From an uncultured cyanobacterium (GTDB taxonomy: Bacteria > Cyanobacteriota > Cyanobacteriia > Cyanobacteriales > FACHB-T130), in NCBI GenBank assembly GCA_936920195.1, contig CAKZHE010000115.1:1-35453 (forward strand): a stretch of DNA of 35,453 bases. The letters run 5' to 3'. The notes beneath the pieces were generated by a model, which saw only the letters and a list, made by a program, of their open reading frames with translations, ran no database searches and was not told the DNA's origin. Position 1 is the stretch's first letter; each line of letters begins with the position of its first letter. This document shows positions 5,219-35,187 of the stretch, in pieces. The translations under genes were made by a program, and so were the position numbers.

Positions 5219-5300
5219 AATCCAATACAGTTCAGTAAGTAGGTGGTCATCAATAAAAGAACGCAAAAGTTTGTAGTTAACTGGTTCCCAGGCTCTGCCT

Positions 5301-5344
5301 AGGCTGTTGACTTTGTGCCTTTTTATGGGGTTTCTGTTCATGCA
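5301..5344 (+). repeat. AGGCTGTTGACTTTG...TTCATGCA repeat, copy 1
   Basis: Starts AGGCTGTTGACTTTGTGCC and ends TTCATGCA. Relatives are at 28643-28688, 33626-33668 and, on the minus strand, 33809-33852. It is nearly identical to the minus-strand copy that forms one arm of the element in front of the DNA methyltransferase gene. Confidence 0.75.
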
Positions 5345-5370
5345 GTTTCTAGGTAATTAATCAACCAATA

Positions 5371-5493: not shown

Positions 5494-5604
5494 TTGGGGG
5501 TGTATGGGGCGGGTTTAGATCATTTGTCGGTGGGCATTAAAGATCTGAGTGAACCCGCGCCTACAAAATTGGGAACGAGTAAAAATAAAAGAACGCAAAA
5601 GTTT

Positions 5605-5651
5605 GTAGTTGGGCTTCAGCCCTCTCCGGATTAGGGCTGAAGCCCAACTAC
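5605..5651. repeat. perfect 19-bp inverted repeat hairpin
   Basis: Arm GTAGTTGGGCTTCAGCCCT at 5605-5623 is matched exactly by AGGGCTGAAGCCCAACTAC at 5633-5651 around a 9-nt loop. It lies 40 bp past the 3' end of the lipoprotein gene. It is not followed by a T-run, so a dispersed palindromic repeat is likelier than a classical terminator. Confidence 0.85.
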
Positions 5652-5691
5652 GAACTTAAGTTCAAATCCAAAATTCCAAATTCACCAGATT

Positions 5692-12929: not shown

Positions 12930-13613
12930 TTAGTATTCCCAAGTCACCTCAATATTTAAGGGCGTACAATAAGAACGAATCATACTCAAGAAATCCGGGG
13001 AAGTTTCCCCAAATAAATGAATCCGCTTTTGGCGATCTGGATAGGATTGACTATAGATTATCACTTGTCCTACCGCACACTTCCAACTATTGACTGATTT
13101 AACTTCAATTAGTTCTTTGGAAGTGAGAATATCAATCTTGCCAGCTAAAGTTGACACTTCTCGTTTCACTTTGCCTAAACTTTTTGCTAAACGACTTTGG
13201 ACTAATTTTTCAGTTAATTTAAACTTCCGCTCAAAGCTTAAATATTCCCAGTATTTATATGCCAGTTCGTCGCTAGCAAATGTCCCGCCATTTCTACCCC
13301 GTTTAACGATATAAATATTGCCAACGACTTGTAATTGTAGTGCTTGAATCGTGACTTTTGTTTGCTTTTGTTGCATCCAGCGCGACGGAATTTTATTTTT
13401 AGGACTGCCGGAGACTCGCCACATATCATTTAGACAAATTAGCCCATAGCTGCGGCGAACTTGGGTGCTAGGGATATTATGAGAATCTAAGAATGGATCT
13501 GCTACTTTCCATTCAAACAGGGCTAACTGTTGAAATTCGGCTTGGTTTTCCGGATCAGTAATCTTTTCGGCGATAGAATTGATAATTGGTGCGGCTTTGG
13601 GTTTAACTTGCAT
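12930..13613 (-). CDS. KilA-N-like domain plus PD-(D/E)XK-like nuclease domain
   Basis: The 227-residue product looks two-part. Residues about 55-130 (GLICLNDMWRVSGSPKNKIP, then GRNGGTFASDELAYKYWEYL) match the pattern of KilA-N DNA-binding domains of phage and mobile elements. Residues about 135-225 look like a restriction-endonuclease core: E152, D161 in GKIDIL, E170-V-K172, then Q183 in GQVIIY. This is the spacing of PD-(D/E)XK catalytic residues, where GKIDIL supplies D and IEVK supplies E and K. A DNA-targeting nuclease is therefore suggested but not proven. The start codon is 21 bp from the divergent start of the broken lprI-type gene. Function in defence or element control is inference. 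Confidence 0.6.
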   Translation of the reverse strand: MQVKPKAAPIINSIAEKITDPENQAEFQQLALFEWKVADPFLDSHNIPSTQVRRSYGLICLNDMWRVSGSPKNKIPSRWMQQKQTKVTIQALQLQVVGNIYIVKRGRNGGTFASDELAYKYWEYLSFERKFKLTEKLVQSRLAKSLGKVKREVSTLAGKIDILTSKELIEVKSVNSWKCAVGQVIIYSQSYPDRQKRIHLFGETSPDFLSMIRSYCTPLNIEVTWEY

Positions 13614-26806: not shown

Positions 26807-27460
26807 TTAAGGTAACTTTCTCATAAAATCCTCATTAATAGCAGCATTTTCTACCTGATTACGAAATATATCAAGCATTGCCATAATTTCTTTATGTAAC
26901 TCTATATACTGTTCTCTATCAATCATCAAATAGTTACCGTGTGCAATTTCATTTCTTGCTTTTAAAAGCTTAGTATCGATTAATACAGACTTAGTAGAAT
27001 ATACTGAAAAATCTATTCCAAGAATACAAGTTATTTCTTCTAAAATTTCAGAAGAGAGATTGGATGCAGTAGAAATTCCATCTTTGTATGGCAGAGATGA
27101 TCTCGTAGCTAATTCAGAAAGAAAGAAATCACAGACAGGTATATATAATGACGGCTTCTTTGTATCTTTTGCTTGGTCTAATTTTGTTTTCATAGCAAGA
27201 GCTAGAAAATTGCTAGAAAGCTGATCGTAGGGAAGCTTTTTCATAGCAACATATTCTAGGTAAGAGTTTGATGCTAATTTAACAAAACCTTCCCAATGAG
27301 CATAGAGAATACATACTCCACTGCGAATTAAAGCATTATGCTTTGAAGAAGAAACATCTTTCGCTTCTATCAAAGATTTTACTTCTGAAAGTTCTTTTTT
27401 CCGCCAAATAAGATCTTCTGCAAGTTTAGCATTTAGTTGTTCAGCTGTTCGGACACTCAT
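26807..27460 (-). CDS. HEPN RNase-like protein (MAE_28990/MAE_18760 type)
   Basis: The 217-residue helical protein has the HEPN catalytic motif R169-N-E-I-A-H174 (RNxxxH, LKARNEIAHGNY) and the family-typical YAHWEGFVK at 53-61. These are marks of the MAE_28990/MAE_18760 HEPN family, named from Microcystis proteins. HEPN proteins of this kind cleave RNA and act as toxins or effectors. Its start overlaps the stop of the DUF262 gene (ATGA, 27457-27460), so it is translated with it. The intact motif suggests an active enzyme. It may have been acquired with its partner, as the region is lower in GC than holB. Confidence 0.82.
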   Translation of the reverse strand: MSVRTAEQLNAKLAEDLIWRKKELSEVKSLIEAKDVSSSKHNALIRSGVCILYAHWEGFVKLASNSYLEYVAMKKLPYDQLSSNFLALAMKTKLDQAKDTKKPSLYIPVCDFFLSELATRSSLPYKDGISTASNLSSEILEEITCILGIDFSVYSTKSVLIDTKLLKARNEIAHGNYLMIDREQYIELHKEIMAMLDIFRNQVENAAINEDFMRKLP

Positions 27461-28563
27461 AGGGGAGAAAATACTCCTCTACCAAGCGGAATTAGGTATG
27501 GTAAACGTCTTGCAGCATTCACGCCTGCTCCAGACCATTTTTGATAATCTGGATTTGACCAAATACTTTTTATCCGATCAGATATTTGATTTGCTGAAGG
27601 TAGATGTTGATAGTGGTATCCAATCCCTAATGCTACAACTTCATAGGCAGATAATAGAAAACCACCAAGAAACCTGTTGTGTTCAGATTTATATCTTTTG
27701 AAACTATCATCACCTGTGGTTTCATTAAGCAAATCAAATGTTGTTTTAAATGCTGTCTCTATATGGCTATAATTTAACCCTTTATTAACAGCCATTATCC
27801 GCATTTCATTTGTCAAAAAAACGCTAACATCACCTAATTTATCAAGATTTTTGTTATCTCGATCGAATAAAAGTATGAAACGCAATACCAATTCCATATC
27901 ATACTGTTCTTCATAGAGTCTATCGCTCAAAGCAATACAGCTTTTAAATGCTTCATAATCCGCAAGTGAACGCATTAAATGATACAAATCTTTATTCAAC
28001 ATCAAAAGAATGCAATTTCTGACTTCTTGAGGCGTAGCAACCGATCCTCCTGTATTCAGTCGCTGAAATAGCTCATATTTAATCATTTCATCGCTTTCTT
28101 TTTCAACAATATTGACTGCGATTTTTGCTCGCTTAATCAATAAGCGCTGTGTGGGAGTGAGAGAATTATCTTTATCATTTGGATCGTCCCATTTTTTGCC
28201 CTCTAAGGAAGGTAAGTATGTAGTCTTTTTTAAAGCTACTGGATGTACATCATTTTCTGATTCACCTTTTTTTAAAATACCGAAAAACTCATATATAGTT
28301 GAGAGTCTTTGAACACCGTCTACAACATCCCAAACACCATCATCTCGTTGACTAACGAAAATTGGTGGAATTGGTATGCCTAGTAGAATTGATTCTATAA
28401 AAGTTGATTTTTGGTGATCTGACCAACGAAAAAACCTTTGAAAATCTGGGTGAATATCGATCTCATTATTTTGATAAAGGCTCACCCACTCCCCAATAGA
28501 CATTGAGTAGCCGTCTGTCCGAATTTCTTGCCTTGTTTTGTCAATTTCTTCTTGTAGGGGCAT
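27457..28563 (-). CDS. DUF262 (GmrSD N-terminal/ParB-like) protein
   Basis: The 368-residue product carries the DUF262 pattern at residues 30-95: HPDFQRFFRW (38-47), FIESILLGIPIPPIFV (55-70) and DVVDGVQRLSTI (79-90), where DG(Q/V)QR is the predicted nucleotide-handling motif. In GmrSD systems DUF262 is joined to DUF1524 (HNH) and restricts modified phage DNA. Here there is no HNH domain; the partner is the HEPN RNase encoded downstream. The C-terminal half is helical and variable. ATG 28563 is preceded by a weak Shine-Dalgarno. The proposed role is sensing or switching for the HEPN effector. Confidence 0.85.
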   Translation of the reverse strand: MPLQEEIDKTRQEIRTDGYSMSIGEWVSLYQNNEIDIHPDFQRFFRWSDHQKSTFIESILLGIPIPPIFVSQRDDGVWDVVDGVQRLSTIYEFFGILKKGESENDVHPVALKKTTYLPSLEGKKWDDPNDKDNSLTPTQRLLIKRAKIAVNIVEKESDEMIKYELFQRLNTGGSVATPQEVRNCILLMLNKDLYHLMRSLADYEAFKSCIALSDRLYEEQYDMELVLRFILLFDRDNKNLDKLGDVSVFLTNEMRIMAVNKGLNYSHIETAFKTTFDLLNETTGDDSFKRYKSEHNRFLGGFLLSAYEVVALGIGYHYQHLPSANQISDRIKSIWSNPDYQKWSGAGVNAARRLPYLIPLGRGVFSPL

Positions 28564-33290: not shown

Positions 33291-33367
33291 ACCAAAGTAA
33301 ATTTCAACTTATTGATATAAGGAATGAGAAACCAATAAAATGACTAATTGCAGCACTGATAATACCT

Positions 33368-33448
33368 GTAGGTTGGGTTGTAACGATAGTGAAAACCCAA
33401 CATTTATCAATGGTTTGTTGGGTTTTGCCCTCTAGCAACCCAACCTAC
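33368..33448. repeat. GTAGGTTGGGTTG...CAACCCAACCTAC inverted-repeat element
   Basis: The 13-bp terminal arms are perfect inverses. Inside, AAAACCCAACA (33392-33402) and TGTTGGGTTTT (about 33415-33425) form a second pair. It is an 81-bp hairpin without coding capacity. Confidence 0.85.
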
Positions 33449-33480
33449 GATTATAATCAAGTTATTGATTTTTCATTCCT
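33447..33480 (+). repeat. 34-bp repeat, second copy
   Basis: Matches 20001-20034 with 2 differences. Here it directly follows the GTAGGTTGGGTT hairpin and is non-coding. Confidence 0.75.
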
Positions 33481-33615
33481 AAATAGACAGAGCAGATGCT
33501 ATTTGGTAAGATTAATAGTATCAGATTTTGCCTAGTCGCAGATTTACACATAATGATTCAGACTCGCCATATATGAAAACAGTCAATATCAGCAATCAAA
33601 TAGAGTTATTCAACA

Positions 33616-33861
33616 CCTTGAAGCTAGGCTGTTGACTTTGCGAGTTTTTCAGCAATTTGGTTCATGCAATAACCGTGTTTGATCCCCCCTAGCCCCCCTT
33701 AAAAAGGGGGGAACCGGAAAATTCTTCAAAGTCCCCCTTTTTAAGGGGGATTTAGGGGGATCGAAACTTAGGACGGTAGTCATAAAAGCTAATTGACAGA
33801 TCGGAAACTGCATGAACAGAAACCCCCTAAAAAGGCACAAAGTCAACAGCCTACCTTGAAG
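33616..33861. mobile_element. nested inverted-repeat (MITE-like) element
   Basis: The outer arms are AGGCTGTTGACTTTG...TTCATGCA at 33626-33668 and its inverse at 33809-33852; CCTTGAAG or its near-inverse lies just outside each arm. Inner arms are GATCCCCCCTAGCCCCCCTT (33681 on) and its near-inverse at 33732-33762. The arms belong to repeat families found alone at 5301, 28643 and 18253. No transposase is encoded. The right arm covers the first codons of the methyltransferase reading frame. Confidence 0.75.
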
Positions 33862-35187
33862 CCCCTGAATCTAACCTTTATTAAAACTAGATTTACCTTT
33901 GTCGATCTTTTCGCTGGCATTGGGGGATTCAGAATTCCCTTAGAACAGTTAGGGGGAAAATGTCTAGGGTATTCAGAAATTGATAAAGCTGCCATTAAAG
34001 TGTATCAAAATAATTTTATCCGCTATTGCAATCAAGATGAAAACAATTTAGGCGATATTCGACAAATCGGCAAACTACCATTTGATATTGATCTTATTGT
34101 CGGGGGTGTACCTTGTCAATCCTGGTCAGTGGCAGGGAATCTGCAAGGATTTAAAGATCCTAGAGGTCAACTTTGTTTTGATGCCATTAGAGTTGTCCAA
34201 GAAAATCAACCGAAAGCTTTTATCTTTGAAAACGTCAGAACTTTAATTAGCAACGCTCATAAAAGCAGTTTAAATTTATTAATCCAAGAATTTCATAAGC
34301 TTGGTTATATTGTCCATGTCAGTTTGTTAAACTCCTATGATTTTGGAGTACCTCAAAACCGAGAACGGATGTTCTTAGTCGGGATTAAAAACGATCTAGA
34401 TAGATGTCACGAATTTAAATTTCCCCAGCCTGTGACAACTAAGCCCAAATTAATTGATATTTTAGACGATATTCAAAATTATTCGTCAGTAGTTAAACCA
34501 AAAATCAAACCAGAAATTTTATTTGGCGATAAAATCCCTTATTCCAGAAACAGATTTCAAAAAAATGATGAGTTTAACGACTTTTTTGTTTTCTGCGATA
34601 CCAGGGCAGGGCATACCACTATTCATTCTTGGGATTTGATCAAAACTAGCTCCAGAGAAAAGCAAATTTGTTATACGCTGCTCAGAAACCGAAGAAAGAA
34701 AAAGTACGGAGCTAAAGACGGTAATCCCCTATCATTTCAAGATTTATCGGCATTAATTTCTGCATTGCAACTAACGGAAATTGAGCAATTAATCGCCAAA
34801 AATATTTTACGCTATGTACCCAATATTGGCTATGAGTTTGTAAATTCCAAAAATTCTGCTGGCATCAACGGAGTCTATCGAGTATTCTTACCTTCCTGTG
34901 ATGCTATCCCTACCTTAACTGCTAGCGGGATGAATGATTTCATTGCCACTATTCATCTAGATAGTAGTGAAGATCCTGAAACTTATAAAAAGATGTTTAT
35001 TCAAGAAATTTATCGCAAAAAATGTTATCGTCCCATATCGGCTCAAGATGCTAAAAGATTGCAAGGATTTCCAGAATGGTTTCAAGCCCATGAATCTGAA
35101 AGTACAGCTAAACACCAGTTTGGAAACTCTGTTTCTTTACCAGTTATTTATCATTTAGCCGAATCTTTACTGAAAATAATACTTTGA
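33793..35187 (+). CDS. C5-cytosine DNA methyltransferase
   Basis: The 464-residue (or shorter) enzyme has motif I FAGIGGF (40-46), motif IV with catalytic C108 (GGVPCQSWS), motif VI E146-N-V, motif VIII QNRER (188-192) and motif X QFGNSVSLPV near the C-terminus. The target-recognition region is about 250-400. TTG 33793 opens the frame inside a repeat arm and TTG 33856 is the next usable start; no in-frame ATG precedes motif I, so the native start may have been displaced by the repeat. No restriction endonuclease gene is seen in the 266 bp downstream, so it may be solitary or its partner lies outside. Confidence 0.9.
   Translation: MTDRKLHEQKPPKKAQSQQPTLKPLNLTFIKTRFTFVDLFAGIGGFRIPLEQLGGKCLGYSEIDKAAIKVYQNNFIRYCNQDENNLGDIRQIGKLPFDIDLIVGGVPCQSWSVAGNLQGFKDPRGQLCFDAIRVVQENQPKAFIFENVRTLISNAHKSSLNLLIQEFHKLGYIVHVSLLNSYDFGVPQNRERMFLVGIKNDLDRCHEFKFPQPVTTKPKLIDILDDIQNYSSVVKPKIKPEILFGDKIPYSRNRFQKNDEFNDFFVFCDTRAGHTTIHSWDLIKTSSREKQICYTLLRNRRKKKYGAKDGNPLSFQDLSALISALQLTEIEQLIAKNILRYVPNIGYEFVNSKNSAGINGVYRVFLPSCDAIPTLTASGMNDFIATIHLDSSEDPETYKKMFIQEIYRKKCYRPISAQDAKRLQGFPEWFQAHESESTAKHQFGNSVSLPVIYHLAESLLKIIL

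Follow-up and report, generated by a model that had tools for sequence, protein, structure and literature searches.

A miniature inverted-repeat element parts a cyanobacterial cytosine-C5 methyltransferase gene from its native start and a likely clamp-docking tail

Protection of newly replicated, half-methylated DNA in the hosts of restriction-modification systems is usually put down to the kinetics of the enzymes involved. Ties between methylation and replication are described for the plasmid-borne, single-strand-specific methyltransferases M.EcoGIX and M.BceJIII, for which the portion of PMC7736820 drawn on here names the sliding clamp as possibly linking them to DNA polymerase I. Among the matches listed, we found in open-licence PMC papers no report of a clamp-docking peptide on a restriction-modification methyltransferase. 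Prokaryotic miniature inverted-repeat elements (MITEs) inactivate genes, also in cyanobacteria, according to the sections of PMC10969869 cited here. The locus described below lies near the right end of a stretch of 35,453 nucleotides from an uncultured cyanobacterium (contig CAKZHE010000115.1), referred to throughout as the window. We consider it highly probable that a MITE hit codon 18 of a methyltransferase gene in this genome, severing the native start together with a 17-residue tail that is likely to dock on the clamp, and that silence of the enzyme is likelier than its useful expression.

The window protein is a cytosine-C5 methyltransferase by its matches to PF00145 (E 1.7e-81) and TIGR00675, with sequences that we take to be motifs I, IV (PCQ) and VI (ENV). 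The features of the gene and of the element within it are the following, in window coordinates.

33573..33624, + strand: severed 5' gene end, consisting of ATG 33573, 17 codons (MKTVNISNQIELFNTLK) and the first base of codon 18, in frame and sequence like the start of L071/L156
33597..33611, + strand: codons for QIELF, a motif like those that dock on sliding clamps
33616-33624, no strand: left copy of the target-site duplication, CCTTGAAGC
33625..33853, no strand: miniature inverted-repeat element, 229 bp, with perfect 16-bp terminal repeats (left TAGGCTGTTGACTTTG, right CAAAGTCAACAGCCTA)
33678..33765, no strand: inner inverted repeat (GATCCCCCCTAGCCCCCC...), present in 9 of 9 aligned element copies
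33786..33815, + strand: remnant of the gene end of the donor insertion sequence, KLIDRSETA-stop, by comparison with the donor's KLVDDTETA-stop and by alignment of the end DNA
33793..33795, + strand: TTG within the element, first possible start of the present frame
33854-33862, no strand: right copy of the target-site duplication, CCTTGAAGC
33856..33858, + strand: TTG, native codon 16 (Leu), second possible start
33863..35187, + strand: intact remainder of the gene (PF00145), with motif I at 33898-33930, PCQ at 34111-34119, ENV at 34228-34236 and the stop at 35185-35187

The frame as it stands today opens at TTG 33793, right after a stop at 33790, and remains open over 464 codons to 35187. The closest orthologue, L071/L156 (86% identical), starts MKTATASNQIELFNILKPLNLTF and reads on MKTATASNQIELFNILKPLNLTFIQTKFTFVDLFSGIG; in the window, MKTVNISNQIELFNTLK starts at ATG 33573 to the left of the element, and PLNLTFIKTRFTFVDLFAGIG follows to its right. 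The same holds at the DNA level, where the orthologue presents an empty site: window 33573-33624 corresponds to L071 1459-1510 and the window from 33856 onward to L071 from 1504, and joining the flanks of the element restores an in-frame reading. The net insert is 238 bp, a multiple of three plus one, so that the frame is shifted, and reading from ATG 33573 today yields 20 residues before a stop at 33633. Because this ATG and 17 codons survive on the left, and because the orthologue has the empty site, the native start was severed rather than replaced. The preliminary description, made from the window's letters, had allowed that the repeat replaced the native start; it was right that the start is displaced, but ATG 33573, which lies beyond the element, escaped it, as did the 9-bp target duplication, and the gene is in fact interrupted and frame-shifted. 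A further possible start, TTG 33528, lies upstream in the same open frame, and we favour the ATG over it because the orthologue supports the ATG. As judged from sequence, the locus no longer holds the native uninterrupted gene, the start being both separated and out of frame. The empty site attests a past insertion and says nothing on present mobility.

Right of the element, the frame has gained an N-terminal extension of 20 element-coded residues, the right arm spanning its codons 1-20 as had been noted. In the comparison with orthologues that the preliminary description had proposed, these residues recur in none of the N-termini read. Homology to the orthologues begins at window residues 20-25 in 82 of 115 non-self matches (later in 20, earlier in 13), which is about where the DNA of the element ends.

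That an inverted-repeat, nested MITE-like element lies here had been seen before; its arms were found again independently, and its borders, fixed by script, enclose 229 bp between perfect 16-bp terminal repeats. The perfect 9-bp duplication stands on both sides, and such identical flanking 9-mers are the footprint of transposition. The outer inverted-repeat arms (33608-33649 and 33829-33870) agree at 79% over 42 nt and the inner arms (33678-33710 and 33733-33765) at 85%. Since the inner repeat occurs in every one of the nine aligned copies, its nesting did not arise at this locus; the inner-repeat part alone is also matched elsewhere in the genome. A separate inverted repeat with 24-nt arms (83%) occupies window 33357-33459, between the cyanoexosortase B gene and the methyltransferase.

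The 16-bp end has 314 matches in its own genome at no more than one mismatch, against 0 for a reversed control pattern, and the stretch 33617-33862 has 70 own-genome matches to parts or the whole of it, fragments and inverted self-matches of the inner repeat included, so the element is not a product of chance. The family is greatly expanded in this genome: exact ends were found in 4 of 100 genomes, with 226 in the window's own and one or two in each of three others. Among 16 copies picked by length from 30 fetched, the window copy included, the target duplication is an exact 9 bp in eight, has one mismatch in two and is lacking in six, and several of the duplicated targets resemble GGCNNNGCC. 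Elsewhere in the window, in the parts 5300-5360 and 5600-5660, a second terminal repeat of the family (TAGGCTGTTGACTTTG at 5300) has no exact right end nearby and lies about 300 bp from an inverted repeat of the GGGCTTCAGCCC type.

In the genome G019 a 1,687-bp relative has these ends too, is bordered by a 9-bp duplication (GGCTAGAGC) and includes a gene of 431 codons; the donor insertion sequence is placed at L155:447-2151, with an open reading frame at 809-2104 that ends KLVDDTETA. Both ends of the 1,687-bp version align with both ends of the window element, and the 3' end of a donor-type gene occurs at contig ends in three places of the window's own genome (74-79% identity); the window element is for these reasons most simply an internally deleted derivative. 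We infer that the 431-codon gene encodes a transposase. Comparison with Pfam and NCBIfam at E 0.01 gave no match that would name the donor insertion sequence; among the 15 listed of 16 records of plasmid relatives (Nostoc, Calothrix and others), 13 are hypothetical proteins and 2 are unannotated. The donor possibly belongs to an undescribed family. Many terminal repeats, among 100 matches listed in the window's own genome (G000), lie less than 200 bp from the start of a contig, and contigs C117 and C154 start within the donor gene; it was probably full-length copies of the donor that interrupted the assembly at those contig ends.

With terminal repeats, a target duplication, a high copy number, ends in common with a longer element and no transposase (for which 229 bp is too short), these comparisons show the element to be a MITE that arrived by ordinary insertion, a non-autonomous deletion derivative of a cyanobacterial insertion sequence. 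It is the nearest to the consensus among nine aligned copies, with 10 differences of which 4 are private. Of 15 copies tested for insertion into genes, the window copy is the only one far within a long frame (473 codons when read across the empty site); a second copy, in L011, sits 13 nt after the start of a possible frame of 503 codons or more, and for the other 13 the longest frame has 61 codons or fewer. The L011 copy (L011:1501-1764), at the very start of that possible frame, has an exact duplication of GCTTCAGCC.

Matches to the methyltransferase were found in 104 of 388 genomes of the order, the window's own included (E 1e-100), and 13 loci lie in named genomes, two of them distant. Five other genomes of the same family gave none (0 of 5 at E 1e-60), as expected for a gene moving between lineages. 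Every best match in plasmids and phages, among the 5000 and 1581 records listed, is below 60% identity. Six orthologues (G281:C1, G378:C1, G122:C57, G195:C96, G313:C19 and G359:C146) have between 1 and 16 stops inside the match, and by these sequences the methyltransferase seems to decay repeatedly.

The gene adjoining the methyltransferase carries the Pfam domain RE_TdeIII in L040 and RE_EcoO109I in L157, and because of these nuclease neighbours we place the family at least partly in Type II restriction-modification systems; the single neighbours scanned in L039, L158 and L156 include no nuclease. The window's genome gave no TdeIII-type match; a search for EcoO109I was likewise without a match, as were its own controls. 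The contig ends 266 bp past the methyltransferase gene, with no nuclease in that remainder. From the names TdeIII and EcoO109I we take the core specificity of the nucleases to be GGNCC, and the neighbours suggest that this is probably the recognition core of the family. It is plausible that an orphan methyltransferase, free to decay, is why the insertion was tolerated. On the same contig, a protein with a GmrSD N-terminal domain (window 27457-28563, - strand) is by name a Type IV restriction candidate. An identity as the CGATCG (HIP1) methyltransferase was considered and is unlikely, given the distribution of the family over 104 of 388 genomes and nuclease neighbours that point to GGNCC; CGATCG enzymes are almost coextensive with the overrepresented HIP1 in the part of PMC4390886 cited here.

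The severed tail was compared in an orthologue set of 113 rows, 107 of them distinct, made up of 99 of the 115 non-self order-wide matches and of 10 and 4 loci from two further searches; the 16 matches left out include ones with stops or without the N-terminal part. A strict Q[LIMVF]xLF is present in 59 of the 107. Motif I was located by script in 100, the seven dropped having QLELF (six) or QLEFF (one), and within these 100 Q[LIMVF]xLF occurs in 53, QxxLP[LIV] in 23 and either form in 76, although the 76 carriers are not independent events because the orthologues are related. Shuffled tails gave a mean of 1.1 and a maximum of 7 over 1,000 rounds, and the reversed pattern was found in 1 of 100. 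The motif, Q[LI]xLF or QxxLPL, starts 14-23 residues before motif I; the first 14 residues of L040, for example, are MKPGIYGQQLELFQ. Many of the 24 orthologues without a strict form have near-variants (QLSFF, QLDIF, QIAVPL, QLEIF), the tails of L054, L075 and L152 are more degenerate, and L064, L065, L095, L111 and L124 either lack a motif of this kind or have hardly any frame upstream. An alignment not anchored on the motif has Q in 99 of 102 orthologues at its column and the second L in 88 of 103, and the columns before Q are highly variable.

Outside the family the motif is rare. From 39 control rows of other cytosine methyltransferases, two of the same family and one duplicate were removed, and it was found in one of the remaining 36 (L184, QLDLF), two others (L035 and L037) being unreadable at the N-terminus. 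The 30 other frames of the window (about 9,100 residues) contain it once, as QLALF at residue 29 of a KilA-N domain protein (window 12930-13613, - strand). L184 belongs to another subfamily (36% identity to the window's enzyme) and has its QLDLF near the N-terminus; going by this sequence, tails that resemble clamp-docking ones may not be confined to a single methyltransferase family.

QIELF and the motifs of the orthologues resemble sliding-clamp docking motifs, and binding to the clamp is what this resemblance leads us to infer. QL[S/D]LF is the bacterial docking consensus, given there for C-termini, in the portion of PMC9690074 used here. The window's genome has a DnaN gene. The hexapeptide QLSLPL is presumably a second docking form, and the finding of two docking forms alternating at one place is hard to explain otherwise than by the clamp. 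A peptide like QL[S/D]LF or QLSLPL outside the catalytic domain, as would be expected of a clamp client, is what the 76 of 100 orthologues have. Two AlphaFold models built on a 7-row alignment were too poor to use (mean pLDDT 45.8 and 41.8).

A doubtful alternative is that the N-terminal motif belongs to the folded structure, or that it contacts the partner nuclease or DNA. A conserved proline after it in the alignment (93 of 103) would suit such a role, as would the nuclease gene that adjoins the methyltransferase in two orthologues. Yet the residues before the motif vary while Q, L, L and F are kept, the motif alternates between a pentapeptide and a hexapeptide, both forms known for clamp partners as set out above, a few members do without the tail, and the partner nucleases are of two Pfam families, TdeIII and EcoO109I. 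Docking on the clamp is the reading we prefer. As to the broader proposal, that restriction-modification-type cytosine methyltransferases in about a quarter of the searched genomes of the order would be clamp-tethered, and that the MITE would have cut the tether here, leaving a 20-residue frame with QIELF, we hold its chances to be evenly balanced.

The catalytic domain is complete and its frame intact, and in comparison with L156 dN is 0.082, dS 1.031 and dN/dS 0.08, with 17 nonsynonymous and 54 synonymous changes on the window branch and 21 and 24 on that of L156. This absence of decay says little because the insertion looks young, the element being so near the consensus, and the same dN/dS is expected for a recent insertion and for a gene still in use. 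We take the undecayed frame to reflect a young insertion, a truncated enzyme made from TTG 33856 or 33793, or both. Silence or poor expression is, from the sequence features of the locus, most likely, and silence likelier than useful expression. No ATG, as the preliminary description had noted, and no GTG precedes motif I (33898) in frame, and the in-frame start candidates are five: TTG 33793, TTG 33856, CTG 33808, CTG 33865 and ATT 33880. The silent alternative that the preliminary description allowed is the simplest. Between 33291 and 33960 there are three promoter-like sites (mean of shuffles 1.8), none of them inside the element, and the only match resembling a ribosome site near either TTG is AGGA at 33770. 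A transcript initiated upstream is predicted to fold strongly (-116.1 kcal/mol, z -8.5), with a paired probability of 0.37 for TTG 33793 and a mean of 0.89 for TTG 33856 and the region upstream of it, which would be buried in a hairpin.

A truncated active enzyme, transcribed from the original upstream promoter and restarted at TTG 33856 as a tailless methyltransferase of 443 residues, is in our view unlikely. Motif I follows 14 codons on with the catalytic domain complete, the substitutions of the window branch look constrained, and two distant plasmid methyltransferase genes (about 32% identity) are annotated with a start 3-6 codons before the match, without room for a tail. Against this, TTG 33856 lies in the predicted hairpin, and some 220 nt separate it from the upstream stop at 33633, with no ribosome site found. 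Such an enzyme, if produced, would act as an uncoupled methyltransferase.

That the element donated a working start, a promoter or both, so that the enzyme is made with a new 20-residue N-terminus, is very improbable, even though the 464-codon frame from TTG 33793 is undecayed, the strong part of the predicted hairpin does not extend to this TTG and MITEs are reported with promoters and in-frame fusions (sections of PMC10969869 cited here), since the element has no promoter-like site and no convincing ribosome site, TTG 33793 lies in the end of the donor gene read in another frame, the native start is beyond the element, and four private differences suggest little time for adaptation. The earlier proposals that the element supplies the start codons or became the promoter find no support, TTG 33856 being a native leucine codon within the target duplication and TTG 33793 a leftover of the 3' end of the donor gene; the element as the source of a selected start is rejected in view of the empty site and of the N-termini of the orthologues.

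In the course of events that we favour, the comparison with the empty site shows a MITE with its 9-bp duplication to have transposed into codon 18 of an apparently restriction-modification-type cytosine-C5 methyltransferase gene, and the 238 bp added to have shifted the frame and left the catalytic domain without its native start and its 17-residue tail. Through the tail the enzyme would most likely dock on the sliding clamp of replication and methylate new DNA behind the fork. Genome decay through a MITE, as seen in the insertion, is ordinary; the severed tail matters more. If the proposal is true, a conserved clamp peptide would be a direct and testable coupling of the methyltransferase to replication, by which methylation of new DNA would come ahead of cleavage by the partner nuclease, as a bacterial equivalent of the coupling of DNMT1 to PCNA, and this genome, in which the frame of an untethered enzyme is left, would be a natural uncoupling experiment.

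Compared with the prokaryotic MITEs described in the cited sections of PMC10969869, the window family is alike in length, terminal repeats, target duplication, copy number, lack of a gene of its own and origin from an insertion sequence, and differs in its TAGGCTGTTGACTTTG ends, its 9-bp duplication and a donor gene without a Pfam or NCBIfam match at E 0.01. The methyltransferase shares the PF00145/TIGR00675 domain of GGNCC-type Type II enzymes and, in two orthologues (L040 and L157), TdeIII or EcoO109I neighbours; unlike them, the window gene is interrupted, and its family has the N-terminal docking-like motif. M.EcoGIX and M.BceJIII are also bacterial methyltransferases tied to replication, and the portion of PMC7736820 drawn on here makes no mention of an N-terminal clamp motif in them. 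The closest parallel in design is the animal DNMT1-PCNA coupling, in which, according to the portion of PMC9690074 used here, a cytosine methyltransferase likewise has its clamp peptide outside the catalytic domain. The likeness is one of analogy, and we claim no homology of the peptides; here the enzyme is bacterial and probably part of a restriction-modification system, and the clamp would by analogy be DnaN.
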